From the NCBI GenBank assembly GCA_905147135.1, contig LR990056.1, forward strand, positions 12,720,001-12,784,000: DNA of 64,000 nt, written 5' to 3'. Shown here in pieces: positions 20,022 to 47,585 of the stretch; position 1 is the first letter of the stretch, and the number at the start of each line of letters is the position of its first letter. The DNA comes from Blastobasis lacticolella (lineage: Eukaryota > Arthropoda > Insecta > Lepidoptera > Blastobasidae). The notes under the pieces were generated by a model that worked only from the letters and a program-made list of their open reading frames with translations, had not been told where the DNA came from and searched no databases. Both the position numbers and the translations under genes were made by a program.

Positions 20022-23000
20022 ACGCAGCAAGCCACCGTTCCAGATGACGTACACGGCGCGCGCAACGCTCGAAATCAGCGGCAGCAGCGTGAGCTCGGGC
20101 CGCGCGGTCACCACCACCACGGCGTCCAACCAGGTGCGTACCCGCCGCCCGCGCGCCCCCGGGCCCCCGGAACCGGACCGCACGCCCTATCTACCCAACG
20201 ACCATAACAACACTAAACAACGCAAAACGTCCAAAGTTGTACGCGAAGTGAATCGAAGAGCCGGTGGTGCAGATGGTCGCGTGGACACCGCTGGTAACGA
20301 GACGTGGCATTCGGAACGCGCCAGGCCGAACGAGACGTGGCATTCGGAACGCGCCAGGCCGAACGAGACGTGGCATTCGGGACGCGCCAGGCCGAACGAG
20401 ACGTGGCATTCGGAACGCGCCAGGCCGAACGAGACGTGGCATTCGGAACGCGCCAGGCCGAACGAGACGTGGCATTCGGAACGCGCCAGGCCGAACGAGA
20501 CGTGGCATTCGGGACGCGCCAGGCCGAAACTAGATATTATGGATGTGGCAGTGATACGGAACCTGATACAAACAGTAGGTGTCACTGATAAGACTCATCG
20601 CGGGCGATCGAAAAAACCTACGGCTAAAAAAGAGACTGATGCACAGTGTCACAGGCAAAAGCAGCTAATGAAAGCCGTAGTTCCGAACGTTGGCAGCGAT
20701 GCGAAGAATTCTGCAATCAAACAAACGGAAGCTACGGAGATACCCGCCTGGGCTAGTTGCCGCTCGCGCTCTCCCAGCCCCCCGGAACTATACCGCACGC
20801 CCTATCTACCCAACGACCATAACAAAACTAAACAATGCAAAACATCCAAACCTGTACGCGAAGTGAATCAAAGAGACGGTGGTGCTGATGGTCGCGTGGA
20901 CACCGCTGGTAACGAGACGTGGCATTCGGGACACGCCAGGCCGAACGAGACGTGGCATTCGGGACACGCCAGGCCGAACGAGACGTGGCATTCGGGACGC
21001 GCCAGGCCGAACGAGACGTGGCACTCGGAACGCGCCAGGCCGAAACTAGATATAATGGATGTGGCAGTGATACGTGACCTGATACAAACAGTAGGTGTCA
21101 CTGATAAGACTCATCGCGGGCGATCGAAAAAAGCTACGGCTAAAAAAGAGACTAATACACAGTGTCACAGTGTTGGCGGCGATGCGAAGAATTTTGCAAT
21201 TAAACAAACAGAAGCTACAGAGAAACCCGCCTGGGCAATTAATTATACGACGAAAAAAGGAATGCCTCGTAACGGCGCCACGAAGAATACTACTACTAAA
21301 CAAACAGAAGCTAAGAAGCTTGCCTGTGAAACTAATTGCACGTCGAGAAAAGAATCGCCTCGTGAATCTCGTAATAAAGTTTCGGACGGTGACAATAAAA
21401 ACTTTTATATGTCCAAAAATGTGTGTAGTGACGAAGTGAGAAATAATCCGGACACTGACTACTTGTATACCACCCGAGTAAATATGTGGTATCAAGGACT
21501 AGATAGGTATCAATTGCAAAGTAGTTTGACGAATACGTCTAACCAAACACCAATTCAGGACACAAATAATAACATTCCCAATGATAATCTTGTGCCTTAT
21601 ATGCCTACCCTTTATGAAACCTCGGAAACCGTGGATAGTTTAGATGTTTCAATCAATCAAATAGATGATGATGAATCTCCTTGTCATTACGATGACCTCA
21701 CGAAGCAAGCATTTGCAGCAATTTATCCACCAGATAGAAACGTCGACGATGACGTATACAATCAGCATACAGGGAGCACATCACGACCGCGTTCTGTAAG
21801 AGGTATGCAACCTAAAATAAATAAGCCACAGCACATTCTAAGAAATTTAGTGCCAGCTGATTTATCATCTATTAACTCAAGAAATATACTAAACATGACG
21901 ACAGGACCTCCGGCAAAATATCAGCCTACAGCGAGCACATCACGACCGCGTATTGTAAGAGAAATGCAACCAAAACTAAATAAGCCACCGGCTTTTCTAA
22001 GAAATTTAAAGTCATATGATGATTCATATATTAACCCAAGAAATATACGAAAAATGTCGATTGGAACTCCGTCAATCACTCGAGAAGACGTCAAGGCGGC
22101 ATCGCCTGCGACTGATATCAGAGCTAACCGCGATAGCAGTGCATTTGATAAGGAAGCACCAAATGACTGTGATAACAGAAATTGCAGTATCGATAACCGT
22201 GATCCAGTCTGTAATTTGAGTGTTAACAAAAGTTGTGTCAGAGAGTTATCTTTGGACCAAGATAACGCAGCTAAATCTGCTAATAATATAACGTCCAAGG
22301 CCAAACTTGTACCACGCACACAATCAATTACAGGAGAAAGTGTTGAATCATTAAACAAATCAAAGTTTAATATGGCCGATTCTACACCAAAGCTTGATTT
22401 AACCTTGAATCCAGATAATACAAAAGCATCATACTTAAACGCAGACGAATCTTACATTGACAATGGAGATGATTCGACCGCAAATTATATTGAAATGAAA
22501 TCGGTGAATCGTCTACATGTTGAAGATCAAGATGTAGAATTAAAAGAAATGGTCACTACTACCCGGGACATAAATCTTCAGAGTTCGTTTGCGGAGTATA
22601 TGCAAGGCCAAGAACGCCTAATGAAGCTATTAAAATTAGAAGATAACCGTATTGAAAACAATATCACACCAGACAAGATTTCAGTCAAAGAATCAGAGAA
22701 CGTTATGTCAGAAAACATCAAGCAAAGCGAAGAAGGGTGTAACGAGTGCGACGATATCGAAGAAATAAATAGCGACGAGCGTTCTGTTGTTAAACTGGAA
22801 TCGTACCGACCCGGCGCGGGCGCACAGTACGTGCTGGACGAGCTCCCGAATAACTCATACGTCTTGCTAACATTTCCTAGCAGCCTGTCTTCTGCAATTA
22901 AGTTGGAAGCGCTCGCCGGCGTCCTAGCTCTGTGGAATAGTATGAAGCAGAAATCGGTAGTGTTCGATCCGAAGGACGGTGAGAGTACCATAATCAGCGG

Positions 23001-31876: not shown

Positions 31877-31969
31877 GTATGTCCCTACATCTAGGAAAGC
31901 TAGGAAAACTAGGCTACACGGTCTCTGTTCTCTCTAGAAATTTCCCGGGTTGGGAGATACGCGGCGTAT

Positions 31970-32210
31970 TTTTAAACTTCGAAGCGAAAGAGAGGAAATC
32001 TGTCGGGACATTGCCGCAGCTGTCGCCTTTTTTAAACTTCGAAGCGAAAGAGAGGAAACCTGTCGGGACATTGCCGCAGCTGTCGCCTTTTTTAAACTTC
32101 GAAGCGAAAGAGAGGAAGTCTGTCGGGACATTGCCGCAGCTGTCGCCTTTTTTAAACTTCGAAGCGAAAGAGAGGAAGTCTGTCGGAACATTGCCGCAGC
32201 TGTCGCCTTT
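31970..32210 (+). repeat. 60-bp tandem repeat, four copies
   Basis: Four near-identical 60-bp units around GAAGCGAAAGAGAGGAA and GTCGGGACATTGCCGCAGC, in the intron after exon 9. The unit length is a multiple of three, and the frame from exon 9 runs through all four copies (20 residues each, LNFEAKERK...). Confidence 0.92.
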
Positions 32211-33539: not shown

Positions 33540-36500
33540 CGCGCCGCCGCAGCCCCACCGGGGGGCCCCCAGTGCCGGTAGTGCCGCGAGTACCGCAAGT
33601 GCTGGCAGTGTTGCAAGTGCCGCGAGTGCCGGCAGTGTTGCAAGTGCCGCGAGTGCCGGCAGTGCTGCAAGTGCCGCGAGTGCCGGCAGTGCTGCAAGTG
33701 CCGCAGCGCCACCAGCGCCACCAGTGCCGCGAGTGCCAGCGTATTGCCAACGTTCAGTGCGCGATTGCGTCGTTTAGTGAATAGTGAGGAATCTTCCATA
33801 GTGTCGTGGACCGTGACGCGTCGAGACGTTACCGAACCGGACGAGTACAGAGCGCCAGCGCACCGCGCGCCCCGCTCGACCACCTAGGCGTCTTCGCTGT
33901 GACTAATGATAAATTTGTTTTTGCTTTGTAAATATGAAAGTTGAGAGAGCTATTTAAGCATTTAATTACATGCACTCACAAAAACGTAAAAAAATTATAA
34001 TAAAATGTTATCGGTTAGAGTCTGATGTTTTGTTGTCGTGTTGCGTATTGTTTAGTTTGGATGTCTGGGCCTGGCGCGACCGGCCGGCTCACGGCGGATG
34101 CGTGGCCGTTTGTCGCACTTATGTTTTCATACCCGTCATAAAACGTTCATTTCGTACCCCAGTCTGTGCTTTGTACGAAGAGTGGAATGCCTATGCGGAC
34201 ACCATTTGACAGTACCAAATGAATATCGCAAGTGGCGAATACTGGACTTGGAAATAAGCGCCGCTCTTGTTGATTCGATATATTGTGTAGACTGTACCAC
34301 TGTTCTATTTACGGAAACAACAAGTAGTGTAGCTTGGCTGAGGCCTGCCCCGGCCAAGCCCAAGCGGCAACCGCTCCCGCGCCAGGCCGCTTTGAGTATG
34401 AGTAATTATTTTGTTTCTGTTGATGTTTATTGTGCTTGAGTTTTGTTATTATAATCACAAATATTTGGTAGATTTTTTTCTAACTAGCCACTCATGTCTA
34501 ATTTGTTATGTATTTTTAAGTTTTACCATTTAGAATTGTAAATAAAATGAAGATCTATTAAAGTGTAACTGGCCATATTAACATATGGAGTGTACTTCAC
34601 TTGGTGTTGTTCTATTAGGGTAGTTTTTATAAATTAAACCATTGGTAACATTCGTTTGTATTTTGTCTGTATGTTAACGTTGTACGTGAAGTCAGGGCGT
34701 TTACGTTGGTTTATTTTGTTACCCTCGTGGATACAGAGCGAAGTGAAGTAGCATGTGTGAGCTGAACTTTAACATTACATTATTGAATTGTATTATGTTC
34801 GAATACTTGGTGAACACTGAAAAGATATCGCGCGTGCACAGTGGCTTGTGCATCCTTTGCCTATGACACGCGTTTATTACCATGATCTTACTTGTGTACA
34901 TATATGATAACTCAGAATCACTTCCAGACTTTCATTCTGAAATATTTTCCTACCCCATATATATACATTGAAATAGTTACTTTGGTTAATGTTCCTATTA
35001 TTTAGTTAACATATAATTCAACTGATTACCAGAATACTCATATACATATATCCATACTATATAATAGCTATGCATACAGAGCTGGTTCCTGGAGTGATAT
35101 AAGATATTACGATATGAATGAAGGTCATAGCGAATGCACAAGTCACTTGATATTTTTGGCAACAGTGAAGTGTGAGACGAGTATAAATTTTAATAAAGAG
35201 ATGAATAATTAAACTAATTTTTTAGCAAACTAAAGTTTTACCAGATACTAACAATTTGGCATCCTTTTTAAACAATTACATTGTTTTCCTATAAATGATA
35301 TATGTTACCAATTTGCATTCATATAATATTATAAAATTATTTGAAGAGATATTAGAAAGAAATAAAAGAGGTAAAGAAGAAATATTTGAAATATGTCCAG
35401 AGGATGTATTGGTATGCCTATGATAGTCAACCTTTTAATGAACTATTTAGTTAATAACTAGCTTCTTAGTTGTTCATTGTGCCGGGCGATCGACTGGTCC
35501 CGTGGCTCTGGATTGTATAAAGGAACGGCCAAGCCATCCACCAAATGGATAATTCAACAACTGGACTAGAAAAAGTAATAAAATTTGAATATGTAAAAAT
35601 ATTTCTGTACATACATAACCTTATTGTCATATGTTTAACTGCATATACTCTGTAGTGTACATTTTCAATAATGAAACATTGTCCATAGATTCTAACTTAA
35701 GAACTACATGTCTCAATGTGCATTCTTCATAAGTCCATTATTGACGCAAACTAAAAGAAAAAAAAACGAAAAATGTTGCATCAAAAATATATTGGAAAAA
35801 AAAATATTTTTTTATTAATTATAATAGGTAAAAATGAAAGTTAATTTGCTTTTGATATACACACTAGGATTTACTTATTATGTTAGTACATCATAAGATA
35901 AATTCCAGACAAGTTCTGGATTATGCATTTTCTACTTTACTCCAAACTCAATGTTGTTAACTGTATAGCTAATGTTTAGATTTCTTGAAAATACAAGTGT
36001 TGTAAACTTCATTTATGCTATAACGTTATAGCTAGCTGTCTTTACGTCTTTTTGGAATAAGTGATATTCACAATGGTGAATAAACAAATTGTATGGCCAC
36101 AACTGTAAATAAGATGTAATTATACATTAATTTAATTTTACTTTGGAAGAGAGAATGATTTTTCATTATAAACATGACTGTTGAGATTGATATCATTAAA
36201 GGCTCTGAAGGTATGCTCATATCAAAGGTATAGAAATATTATTTATTATTTCTCTCCCTTGTAAAATATGTAAATAGATACGCAGAAAATTATTGGATTT
36301 TTTATTCTTAGTGCATACTAGATGTTGTAGATGCGAGATCTCTGGGTTTGGACGTTTCGAAATAGACGGCGGCGCGGGCCGGGAAGAGCCCGCCGCGCTC
36401 CAAAGGATATTGGATCCCGACTTTATTATTTCATTATTAATTAACCCATCTGCTTCTTTTTAATTTTCGCCTTGAGATCCAAAATTACGAGAATGTGAAG

Positions 36501-43016: not shown

Positions 43017-43205
43017 CACGCCATGCGGATCCTTCACGACCCCGGTGACCTTCCGCTGCGTGTCCTTGCTGAAGTATCCGTACGGTAAATACTTGAGATG
43101 TGCCACGTAGCCGGCGGCGGGTCCCGCTTCGCCCACAATGTCCATATCGCCGTGGTTGTCCACCCACAGCTTGCCCACTATTATGTTGTGGACCGTTGTC
43201 GTCAC
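43017..43205 (-). CDS. Osbp: Osbp exon: ORD core (HNIIVGKLW)
   Basis: Acceptor AATCCGCAG, donor GGCGTG|GTGAGT, phase 0 to 0, 63 codons. Contains TTTVHNIIVGKLWVDNHGDM, LKYLPYGYFSKDTQRKVTG and VVKDPHGV, all diagnostic of OSBP itself rather than more distant ORPs. It accepts either upstream exon (45,348-45,521 or 44,121-44,294) in phase 0. Confidence 0.96.
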
Positions 43206-44120
43206 CTGCGGATTCGATTTTGGGAGTGTCAATGTTGCGTCCATACATTTTATTTTATTTTTTTAAGTACACCAACAGTTGTAGTAGCTAGTAAAGTACA
43301 TATAGTCACGCCACTGTCCCACAGATGGGGTAGGCAGAGACTATGGACCGCCTATATTGCGTTCACGTTTGGGAAAATTAGTTTTCGCGTTTCCAGATAG
43401 CGGTTCTGAGAAGCAAGTGCTGATGTTAAAATCATACTCATTTTACAGCAGTTGTTTCCATCAAATAGTATGGCATTATTCGATAAAAAGCTTCTCGAGG
43501 CCTAGCCTTCATTTATATTTCGAGTAAACAGTACCTACTTGAAATATAAGTTGTCGAGTTGCAAGGAAACGAACGATGTGATTACAAAAATACCGTGGAA
43601 GAGTCGCTATCTTATACTGGACACTAATGTCATTACTAGAGTGTCTTAAAAACAATACACAAAAATTTTTAACTACATAAATTTCATTCTAATAACCTGA
43701 CAAAAAAATAAGCGGGCGGACCACTCTCTTCAATTAACTTGTAAAACGCACTTCTACATACAATGGGGCTCCATTAGGTTCGTTCTCACAACAATTTCGT
43801 GCTACAACAGGACAAATTAACAAAGTTTGCAAGATACATGGTAATGTAAACGTCCATAACGCTGACTATAGTTCCCGTCACTCACACTACTGCTCCGTAG
43901 CCCACATACGACTACGAAAAAGAACGCCGAGCGACAGTGGCGTCCGCCAACTTCAAACCACACATTTTTTATAACATTTTTGCATATATTCCAAAAAAGC
44001 AAAACGGTCAGCGTTGTTTTTACTTACCATTGGACGGCTGCACGCTTTGCGCCACAAAAATACATCTCTACGCATCTACCGCCGCTACGCATTACCTGTC
44101 ACCGTACCCTATCCACGTAC

Positions 44121-44294
44121 CCGGCCCCACGTGAACTCCGCTCCGGTCTTCGCGAAGCGCACGCAGTTCTTCGTCTTGGGGTTGACGTGTATCACTTGAC
44201 CGCGGAAGTGGCTCGATATGGCCATCGTCTGCCAACACACCCAGCCGGCCGCGCCCTCGCAGTGCAGCGCCATCGTGGGCGGGTAGTGCCGCAC
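44121..44294 (-). CDS. Osbp: Osbp alternative exon B (V-R-H-Y-P-P version)
   Basis: A second version of the ORD signature exon, 1.05 kb downstream of exon A in the gene. It has acceptor ATGCAGCAG and a good donor CGG|GTACGT, and is 174 bp, 58 codons, phase 0 to 0, exactly like exon A. Peptide starts VRHYPPTMALHCEGAAGWVC and ends FAKTGAEFTWGR. It shares 20 of 58 residues with exon A, at the expected structural places (H.PP, CEG.AGW..WQ, HFRG/KFRG, final W.). About 52 of 58 third positions are G or C amid low-GC flanks, so it is under coding constraint, not a decayed copy. The second His of the signature is Tyr and the preceding Ser is Arg. Probably mutually exclusive with exon A; inclusion of both would stay in frame but duplicate beta strands. 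Confidence 0.88.
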
Positions 44295-44331
44295 CTGCTG
44301 CATTCTGCTGCATTGCACCCACTGCACCCAC

Positions 44332-44940
44332 TGCGCACTGCACCCAACGCTGTACCGACCTATATACTTGATGCCGTCTCGGTGGGCCGTCCGCGGTGGA
44401 TGCTGTCTCGATTTGTTACATGTTGTGTCAGTCCAATGCTCGGTTCATGTTGTGTAAGTTCTATGCTCGATTTACCGGTGTACTGCGCACTGCACCCAAT
44501 GCTGTACCGACCTATATACTTGATGCTGTCTCGGTGGGCCGTCCGCAGTGGATGCTGTCTCGATTTGTTACATGTTGTGTCAGTCCAATGCTCGGTTCAT
44601 GTTGTGTAAGTTCTATGCTCGATTTACCGGTATACTGCGCACTGCACCCAATGCTGTACCGACCTATATACTTGCTACTATCTCGGTGGGCCGTTCGCGG
44701 TGGATGCTGTCTCGATGTGTTGCGTGTTGTGTCAGTTCTATGTTCGATTTATCGGTGACTACCGGTGTACTGTTAGATTCTTGGTTTACTGTCCCTACTG
44801 CCTATTATCTCGATATGTTGCCTGTTGTGTCAGTTCAATGCTCGATTTACCGATGTACTGTTAAATTCTCGGTTTACTGTCCGTACTGCCTACAGTCTGC
44901 CTGTCAGTTCAATAATCGATTTCCGTAATGCTGTCTCGCC
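44332..44940. repeat. 152-bp minisatellite between the alternative exons
   Basis: Units start at 44,332, 44,484 and 44,636 (TGCGCACTGCACCCA...), exact 152-bp spacing, with a degenerate tail (GTTGTGTCAGTTC, CTCGATTTACCG) to about 44,940. It begins about 40 bp from the acceptor of exon B. Confidence 0.93.
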
Positions 44941-45347
44941 CGATATGCCTGCCGTCCAGCTCTACAGTCCCATATTGCCTACTGTCTCGGTCTAACTGCC
45001 TGTGGTGTCACTGTAATTATGACCGTTTCGTCTGCTTTCCCGGTTCACTGTTCACAATCTGCTATCAGCTCAACACATACCTACCTATTTTAGCGTTGTG
45101 GTGTTTCCGCCGCCTGCCTGTCCCGCCTGCGCCTAAGCACATATTAAAATGTAACGTGTCAATGTTGAACTTGCAATCGTATGTGTTGTCTACTAAGAAT
45201 TTGGAAGCCACGAGGCACTCGTGTCAAGACCAAAGGTCAGGTATGTCACGAGTGTCACGCCCAATCAAGTCACGAGCGCACGCAAGCGTCACACCCTTGT
45301 AAATTCCAAGCTCAACACAACAACGCGTCAAGGGGAGCGATTCGCAC

Positions 45348-45521
45348 CTTTCTCCAGGCGTAGCGATTCCCCGAGTTCGGGAAGTAGGCGGTGGCGCCCC
45401 CCATGGGCACAATCTGTAGGTATTTCCCGCGGAATTTTGTCGTCATCGTGAACTCCTGCCACAACTGCCAGCCGGCTTGGCCCTCGCAAAACTGCGCTAC
45501 CATCGGGGGGTGGTGGGACAC
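45348..45521 (-). CDS. Osbp: Osbp exon A: canonical signature V-S-H-H-P-P
   Basis: Acceptor TGTCCCTAG, donor AGAAAG|GTGCGA, phase 0 to 0, 58 codons. With the preceding exon (…SISEQ) it spells the EQVSHHPP fingerprint of the OSBP family, whose two histidines bind the PI4P phosphate. Continues QFCEGQAGWQLWQEFTMTTK, FRGKYLQIVPMGG and SGNRYAWRK, as expected for OSBP. The donor (GTGCGA) is weaker than that of exon B, and the acceptor pyrimidine tract is short, which fits regulated choice. Confidence 0.97.
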
Positions 45522-47128
45522 CTAGGGACAATTTTGATGGTATTGAATGACCCTATATTTGTACAATATAGGAGGAAAAAAAACAGTAGAGATGGAAGGA
45601 GTTCCAAAAAAATTGAAAGAAAAGTTGGACAAAAATAATCGTATTTTTCGACGTGTTTCCATTTGAGAAGGAAGGAAGGGCCGGCGTTGCTGGAAGGAGT
45701 TTGGTAAGGAATGGTATTCTGGCAAAGGTTATTGTAGGAATTATAGAATGAATTGAGGATGGACTGTGCTGGAAAGAATTTGGGAAGGCAGGCAGGGTAC
45801 TGTGGTTAACGTTATTGCTTCTAAAAATCCTATCATTCAAGTCTAAATAGCACTTTTGAAAATAATCAAGGATGGGCTGTTGGGGTGGCAGACAGAGTAT
45901 TGTTTGTGGCATTGATAATAAAATAATCAAGACAGATGGCTGCTCACACAATGAGGAGTTTTTCAGTAGGTATTGTCAGTTGGTTTCAAAAAGCATCGCG
46001 CTCCTACAATTTTGGTAATTTTTAAAAAATATGTATGTGGCAGCGATATCATGCAGCCATTTAGTACTAAACTTAAAAACAAAATGTTTATTAATATAAA
46101 TATAACTTTTAAAATTCGAACGAAGAAATATTTATAAAGCAGGAACTTTGTTCCATTTTAATACCAACCTTTCATATTTGTATTACGTCCATTCTTGATC
46201 CTAGCATCCATGAAACGAACTGACTCAGTCAAATTGATGTTTGTTGTGTTTGCAATAATTAATTACAACCTCTAAAATGGTTGATAAATACAATATTATC
46301 CAATACAACGTACCCAGTGTTTATATCCTGTTTGCTAAGAACCTATTTCAAGCGATTATCGATTACCAAAATTGTCGGGGCGCCATCTAGTGAATGGTTA
46401 GAAATGCTTTAGATACCTATTGGAAAACTGCTCATTAATTATGTAATGGGGTATTTTCACACAGCAACTTTAAAAAGTGTAGCTCATCGTACCTCACTAG
46501 ATGGCGCTGCTTAGAGAGGATTCTCGGGTATTGAATTTAGTAACCGAAGTTACTCGGTGTTTCGTAAAAAAATTAGTTTAGTTTACTTAGTTTTAGTACC
46601 TTTTCTGAGAAGAAAATACAAAATGTCAACATTTTTATACATCTAACGGTATTGTTTATATTTATTTTTGAGACTCGTGTCTTATCAAAGCCATTTATTA
46701 CAAAAAGTTGAAAAATTTTCATCGGCTCTCGCAAAATCACCCATCGTAGGTAATTAAAGAGGAATTTTAATCTAACGAAAGTTAAAAGTAGTTTTGGAAA
46801 GAATCCCTGTAGTGCCAGAAGGAATTTGGAATATCAGGAAGGGTATTGGTGTGGTGATAGTTACAGAAAAATAATAATTTAAAAAGCGCCGATTTTTCAA
46901 TCCTCAGATAAAATTTACCTGCCCGATAAAGTAATATACATCCAAATTAAAACAAACTATAATCCTTCACTTATTTAAGAAGTAATGACAATTTTATTTT
47001 AGTCGCATATGACTTATCGGACTGATATGTTTTATCTGAGGATTGAAAAATCGGCCCTAAGTACTATAGGATCAGGATATTAATAGGAATTGTGTGTGTC
47101 ATGTGAAAAATGTAAGTGCAAATGTTAC
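45522..47128. other. Osbp intron with repeats
   Basis: No exon seen. It contains a foldback MITE at 46,886-47,057, an interspersed repeat at 46,378-46,575 (shared with 57,640-57,800: GTACCTCACTAGATGGCGCT / GTGCCTCACTAGATGGCGCT; GGTATTGAATTTAGTAACCG), and short imperfect duplications around GGAAGGAAGG near 45,668. Confidence 0.65.
46886..47057. repeat. Foldback MITE
   Basis: Arms GCGCCGATTTTTCAATCCTC and (right) GAGGATTGAAAAATCGGCCC, about 28 bp, enclosing ~115 bp. Common lepidopteran type by memory. Confidence 0.85.
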
Positions 47129-47216
47129 CTGCTCCGATATCGATCGCCAGCCAAGGTCGGCCATGCGGTCGCATTCGAACGTCTCACCCAATAACGGGTT
47201 GAATGGTTTGTTTGTC
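47129..47216 (-). CDS. Osbp: Osbp exon: NPLLGETFE block
   Basis: Acceptor GTCCTGG region read inverted as CCAG|G, phase-2 entry, donor GAGCAG|GTAACA in phase 0. Peptide TNKPFNPLLGETFECDRMAD, LGWRSISEQ. NPLLGETFE is a conserved ORD block near the sterol pocket lid. It ends precisely at EQ, so either V-S-H-H-P-P or V-R-H-Y-P-P can follow. Confidence 0.96.
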
Positions 47217-47585
47217 CTGGAAAAAAAAGGTCAGTGTTAATATTATTATAGGGCTGTTAAAGGTGGGTAAATGCCGTCGCCGGATAGTATGTAAGTTATC
47301 AATGGAGGGGGTTTGTTGTGAACTGTGAATGAGGGAGTAGAGTAATAGTAAGAAGCTCCTAAATGGGCAATATTTTACTGCAACATGTAGCTGCAATATT
47401 GTCACACGAAAAAAGATCACAAGAATAGAAACCGCTATGCCACAATATGAAGATCACAATAAAAGCATTTGAATTTGAAGATGGTGAGGGTGGAAAAGCC
47501 TGGCAGGGCGTTGTTACCAGGGAACCAAGGATCCGTCAGTTGATCATCGGGAGTAGTATCTAGCGCGATGTAGAACGGTCAGCGC

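Follow-up and report, generated by a model that had tools for sequence, protein, structure and literature searches.

Insect genes with mutually exclusive homologous exons include those encoding the ryanodine receptor and the nicotinic acetylcholine receptor subunit nAChR alpha6. Dscam1 and Mhc are further insect cases named in an account of such exons (PMC3923563). Like these genes, the oxysterol-binding protein gene Osbp of the moth Blastobasis lacticolella contains tandem homologous exons that are similar in length and phase and interchangeable within one structural unit. The pair, termed here exons A and B, lies in the 64,000-nucleotide stretch of contig LR990056.1 that we analysed (the window), and encodes two versions of one segment of the lipid-binding ORD. 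With exon A, the gene resembles the OSBP/ORP4 group I, exemplified by human OSBP (7V62), in having a PH domain, an ORD, and the signature EQVSHHPP. This ORD signature is regarded as a defining and well-conserved part of the ORP family. We consider it likely that the two exons stem from an old tandem duplication and are maintained in ditrysian Lepidoptera as mutually exclusive exons, each spliced alone to give two proteins with different lipid pockets, OSBP-A and OSBP-B.

Anatomy and homology of the exon pair

Exons A and B are flanked by two constitutive exons, the first of which ends in the residues ...GWRSISEQ, and either A or B alone connects ...SISEQ to VTTTVHN exactly (Table 1). The original prediction, which was made from the sequence alone, had described these joins correctly, along with the coordinates, equal lengths, and phases of the two exons and their 20 identical residues. 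Its remark on high third-position GC is likewise borne out by values of 0.83 for exon A and 0.90 for exon B. The AT-rich flanks that it reported are present before exon A and after exon B, but the intron between the two is not AT-rich (Table 1). The PH domain is encoded 5' in the same gene, where we located the end of the domain in an exon at ~62.4 kb (NQAEMAHTCRG...ELAKAKAM) whose letters are identical in protein P0006 of Plutella xylostella.

Table 1. Features of Osbp in the window, with coordinates in the direction of transcription.
Feature	Position	Strand	Details
Osbp gene as seen in the window	62516-40334	-	from the open reading frame (ORF) with the PH-domain end to the TAG stop
ORF with end of PH domain	62516-62277	-	
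Upstream constitutive exon	47216-47129	-	...TNKPFNPLLGETFECDRMADLGWRSISEQ; acceptor ...ttccag at 47217; donor CAG/gtaaca after last base 47129
Intron before exon A	47128-45522	-	1607 nt, GC 0.34
Exon A, canonical ORD segment	45521-45348	-	174 nt, 58 codons, phase 0/0; VSHHPPMVAQ...YAWRK
Intron between exons A and B	45347-44295	-	1053 nt, GC 0.50
152-bp minisatellite	44736-44330	.	2.7 copies; 35 bp from exon B acceptor
Weak exon B acceptor	44334-44295	-	7/20 pyrimidines; six AG dinucleotides; tandem CAGCAG/GTG
Exon B, alternative ORD segment	44294-44121	-	174 nt, 58 codons, phase 0/0; VRHYPPTMAL...FTWGR; with FRGQ
Intron after exon B	44120-43206	-	915 nt, GC 0.40
Downstream constitutive exon	43205-43017	-	VTTTVHNIIVGKLW...; acceptor ...ccgcag/GTGACG; first base 43205, VTTTVHN
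TAG stop of Osbp	40336-40334	-	

The two exons encode segments that are identical at 20 of 58 residues, with a nucleotide identity of 56%. Their likeness is not due to chance, as the ungapped BLOSUM62 score of A against B is 122, whereas scores from 100,000 shuffles of B averaged -58.6 and never exceeded 38. The score amounts to 37% of that of A against itself; the default minimum for exon homology given for Kassiopeia, whose score calculation may differ somewhat from ours, is 15% (PMC3923563). Both segments match PF01237 (E = 5.1e-15 for A and 1.8e-11 for B) and human OSBP1 (7V62; 3.3e-14 for A and, over residues 1-57, 1e-6 for B), and the B profile aligns with 7V62 over residues 1-58. The signature EQVSHHPP is formed by the upstream exon together with exon A. 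It is not kept in the B form of the window, which reads EQVRHYPP, while in the four B-only proteins whose EQ join is clean it reads EQVLHHPP, EQVSHHPP (Manduca, in which it is kept), EQVVHHPP, and EQVIHYPP. Judged by its sequence, exon B is a true ORD segment, a claim that rests on homology across the whole segment and not on the signature.

No third copy of the exon was detected in a hidden Markov model (HMM) scan of 2711 six-frame fragments of the window, in which only A and B passed the inclusion threshold and the next matches had E-values of 0.14 (A profile) and 0.029 (B profile). A search of the species' own genome with exon A (577 Mb in 45 contigs, E up to 0.001) returned three places, namely A, B, and one further exon on C24. 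This last match (G000:C24:2031619-2031789, L003), which is 43% identical to exon A (E = 1.3e-6), is probably an exon of another OSBP-related gene. The intronic position of B, its usable splice sites, and its joins on both sides rule out a separate gene or retrocopy, and a nucleotide identity of only 56% rules out an assembly duplication or allelic copy. As expected, neither a phage search with the DNA from 44100-45600 nor a plasmid search with the exon B protein returned a match.

B-type exons in other Lepidoptera

Homologues were taken from a region-limited search of a protein database clustered at 90% identity; the best 120 of 287 proteins, ranked by likeness to the B query, were typed by eye, except for P0021, which has no readable motif. 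Because of the clustering, a B isoform that closely resembles an A isoform may have gone unseen. Within this set, a B-type exon was found in seven proteins from seven lepidopteran species: Plutella xylostella, Hyposmocoma kahamanoa, Choristoneura fumiferana, Epargyreus clarus, Zerene cesonia, Manduca sexta, and Spodoptera exigua. These species represent seven different superfamilies of Ditrysia, and exon A was also found in four of them. The two exons occur in separate proteins in Plutella, where P0006 (isoform X4) has only A and P0059 (X2), which also differs by a 23-residue upstream stretch, has only B, and in Manduca, where P0053 has only A and P0011 only B. Epargyreus X2, Hyposmocoma X2, and the Zerene protein, whose model is irregular in its upstream part, likewise contain B only. 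No B-type exon was seen by eye among the 120 in proteins with non-lepidopteran names; the sole trichopteran protein noticed (P0010) has A, although a single isoform cannot exclude B.

The original prediction had interpreted the pair as mutually exclusive, and these B exons, together with the A-only and B-only proteins of Plutella and Manduca, lend support to that interpretation. The prediction was to fail if B were absent from relatives or interrupted by stop codons there; all eight B exons, the seven of the other Lepidoptera and that of the window, are open over 57-58 residues. A protein search with the Manduca B query gave two matches from seven candidates, and a search with the alignment of B exons gave one B-like ORF of 64 amino acids, P0123, on a metagenome contig of 920 bases. 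The frame of P0123 continues into other sequence, not into VTTTVHN, and as it runs past the end of the exon the contig is probably genomic DNA of some lepidopteran; P0123 was kept outside the tree described below.

On comparison of the two exon types, B proves to be constrained, though less tightly than A is. Identity averages 48% across the eight B exons versus 86% across 22 lepidopteran A exons, and B is the more divergent in 10 of 10 comparable species pairs. Fifteen columns are invariant among the seven B exons from outside the window, 13 of which are kept by window B. Position 33 is Gln (FRGQ) in every B exon versus Lys (FRGK) in 35 of 35 A rows, and position 35 is Ile in seven B exons and Val in the eighth, with Leu or Phe in A. 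The first signature histidine is present in all eight B exons and the second in six, the window and Hyposmocoma having Tyr instead. A profile of A exons clearly separates window A (129.1 bits) from window B (66.3 bits). Where the majority letters of A and B differ (11 columns), window B has the B letter at five and the A letter at one, and it departs from the seven other B exons at positions 54 and 58.

Exon choice and alternative explanations

The GT donors of exons A and B each agree with the donor consensus at 7 of 9 positions, and both acceptors end in AG. With 11/20 pyrimidines, the exon A acceptor is like those of both exons that follow the pair (11/20 each). The exon B acceptor, across its last 40 nt, has no pyrimidine run longer than one. 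Given this weak B acceptor and an A acceptor resembling its neighbours, the simplest model is that A is the default and B an activated exon. Exon A has the better acceptor and a near-frozen sequence, and exon B, whose acceptor lacks a pyrimidine tract, would need help for inclusion and so would probably be restricted to certain tissues or stages. The minisatellite next to the exon B acceptor may affect use of this exon in the window species.

Several means by which exclusivity might be enforced were considered. Exclusion through the reading frame and nonsense-mediated decay is ruled out as 174 = 3 x 58, and steric exclusion is ruled out because the intron between A and B is, we infer, too long at 1053 nt. 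Donors checked by eye against the consensus included no U12-like donor that would point to U12/U2 incompatibility. A scan for branch-site motifs was uninformative, exon A also being without a motif in 200 nt. One 20-nt inverted match of 80% that links exon B to the intron preceding A, found among the matches listed (25 of 39 inverted pairs), is taken as chance. Exclusivity would thus be left to regulatory proteins or to kinetic competition for the downstream acceptor. Within the intron preceding exon A lie 45-nt inverted arms (46885-47058), 87% complementary and 84 nt apart, that resemble a small inverted-repeat mobile element.

A number of results weigh against maintained and mutually exclusive exons, and they are best considered together with the explanations that compete with this reading. 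Splicing of exon B in the window species is a prediction from genomic sequence, and the exon B acceptor is the poorest of eight scored, a set that includes the last-exon acceptor (p11), whose row was off by one base; the donor rows of two upstream exons (p2 and p6), shifted likewise, were left out. In 21 segment pairs tested for the competing pairing of docking and selector RNA, all |z| values were below 2.4, and among frame, intron length, and RNA pairing no mechanism enforcing exclusivity was found. Only B occurs among the listed proteins of three of the seven species (Epargyreus, Zerene, and Hyposmocoma). The inclusion of both exons would keep the frame, since 174 nt is divisible by three, and the gene models of Choristoneura (P0003, with an exact A-B join) and Spodoptera exigua (P0004) do contain A followed by B, as expected if B were a cassette added after A to give an ORD with the segment twice. 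We regard such a cassette as very unlikely: B occurs without A in the listed Plutella, Manduca, Epargyreus, Hyposmocoma, and Zerene proteins, the Spodoptera model, which has additional peptide both ahead of A and between the two exons, looks like an error of gene prediction, and duplicating the hairpin and strands would be expected to break the ORD barrel. It also seems improbable that exon B, while kept across the Lepidoptera, is turning into a relic in the window species, rarely spliced after damage to its acceptor by the minisatellite. The proximity of this repeat, the six AGs and missing pyrimidine runs of the acceptor, the Tyr in place of the second histidine, the divergent positions 54 and 58, and a long terminal branch (3.65) would all fit such decay, but long branches also lead to the B exons of Plutella (4.12), Hyposmocoma (3.43), and Choristoneura (2.77), and window B is open, rich in third-position GC, and retains 13 of the 15 otherwise invariant residues. 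Under simulated unconstrained change (0.25 substitutions per site), 29% of runs retained an open frame, and 0.025% retained both an open frame and the 13 residues invariant in all eight B exons (window included).

The history of the duplication bears on the same question. A single duplication before these lineages split would be the simplest reading of the sequences, and it appears rather doubtful that B-type exons arose repeatedly, through independent duplications in separate moth lineages. The tree comprises 43 rows of a single 58-column exon, and the program flagged the small number of columns, the long branches, and a bootstrap that had not settled. Seven of the eight B rows group at 96/93, and the B exon of Plutella is placed among the A rows on a long branch, as separate origins would predict; Plutella B also has the B majority at four and the A majority at four of 12 distinguishing columns. 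A single group of all B rows appears in 40% of bootstrap trees, and forcing the eight together costs 0.73 log units (approximately unbiased test, p 0.47), such that one B clade is not rejected, yet not demonstrated. Shared descent is favoured by the grouping of the other seven and by Gln at position 33 in all B exons, together with Ile at position 35 in seven of them and Val in the eighth. A profile of the seven other B exons scores window B (88.2 bits) close to window A (83.8 bits), a further point against a maintained pair. The Plutella A and B isoforms were modelled with AlphaFold, in each case from 22 aligned proteins of the 120; the models are poor overall, with a mean predicted local distance difference test (pLDDT) of 57 and 53, a predicted template modelling score (pTM) of 0.36 and 0.40, and a root-mean-square deviation from 7V62 in Foldseek superposition of 11.2 A and 15.7 A, respectively; they were used lightly, for a local ORD match and similar strand positions inside the exon only.

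Tandem repeats were also noted elsewhere in the window. Two 33-bp arrays of nearly the same unit (AACGAGACGTGGCATTCGG...) lie ~380 bp apart at 20296-20528 (7.1 copies) and 20911-21044 (4.1 copies). A 60-bp unit at 31969-32210 (4.0 copies at 97%) leaves more than one minus-strand frame open, as does a 27-bp repeat at 33571-33737 (6.2 copies), several minus-strand frames of which are open and would encode, for example, a His/Cys-rich or Ala/Leu-rich peptide.

The lipid pocket and comparison with known systems

If A and B are mutually exclusive, OSBP-A and OSBP-B would differ only in the 58 residues that span the signature hairpin and the strands following it. The chain in 7V62 is 404 residues long, and the last residue named in a figure legend is 807 (PMC9786093); if 7V62 ends at this residue, the exon pair would correspond to approximately residues 520-577 of human OSBP. 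In the ORP3 structure with phosphatidylinositol 4-phosphate (PI4P), as reported in PMC8049286, both signature histidines are ligands of the 4-phosphate, and further contacts involve strand beta2, helix alpha8, and a backbone atom of Met660 in the lid. Strand beta2 and helix alpha8 fall outside the swapped exon, and the Met660 contact is not placeable because ORP3 residue 660 aligns with Lys at exon position 33. Docking to OSBP points to K577 as possibly contacting 25-hydroxycholesterol (PMC11830314). The residue at the end of the exon, K577 by the numbering above, is Lys in seven of the eight B exons and Arg in window B.

With the signature histidines mostly kept and the last residue basic, a dead form of the protein is unlikely, and a change in affinity or in ligand preference is the more plausible guess. 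OSBP-B would retain the ORD fold, the first of the histidines that coordinate PI4P, and the exon-final basic residue, with Gln for the FRGK lysine, a more variable pocket wall, and, in the window species, Tyr for the second histidine. It would then exchange lipids with an altered headgroup affinity or sterol preference. These animals must obtain their sterols from the diet. We suggest only tentatively that the change from FRGK to FRGQ and the loosened signature move ditrysian OSBP-B, in particular tissues, from sterol/PI4P counter-exchange to another lipid pair (for instance dietary phytosterols or ecdysteroid precursors) or to weaker PI4P coupling. A splice switch that replaces exactly the ORD signature and is kept across many lepidopteran superfamilies would constitute a natural experiment, in which two isoforms share the PH domain and tail and differ at the pocket entrance, so that what the second signature histidine and the FRGK lysine do could be tested directly in transfer assays of ORD-A versus ORD-B.

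The original prediction knew of no such exons in an OSBP gene, and we found no account of them in searches of the open PMC literature, Lepidoptera and Bombyx mori included (without supplements or subscription papers), nor a description there of the Plutella X2 and X4 isoforms. Term searches returned no mention of OSBP or oxysterol in the main text of the papers on mutually exclusive exons consulted, and for splicing in the OSBP reviews consulted a single match, inside a reference. In the database entries for Plutella xylostella oxysterol-binding protein 1, X4 carries the A-type and X2 the B-type segment, as in the window pair; as these entries separate both forms, the pair is already on record, if undescribed.

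The OSBP-family isoforms in the portions of reviews consulted are shortened versions of ORP1, ORP4, and ORP9 that lack the PH domain, and none of them swaps the signature exon; the Osbp pair exchanges this very exon. In contrast to Dscam1, Mhc, the ryanodine receptor, and nAChR alpha6, Osbp has a single pair, located in a lipid exchange protein, with no competing RNA structure found among the segment pairs tested and a frame that does not enforce exclusivity. The pair probably adds OSBP, an unexpected place, to the genes known for mutually exclusive exons.
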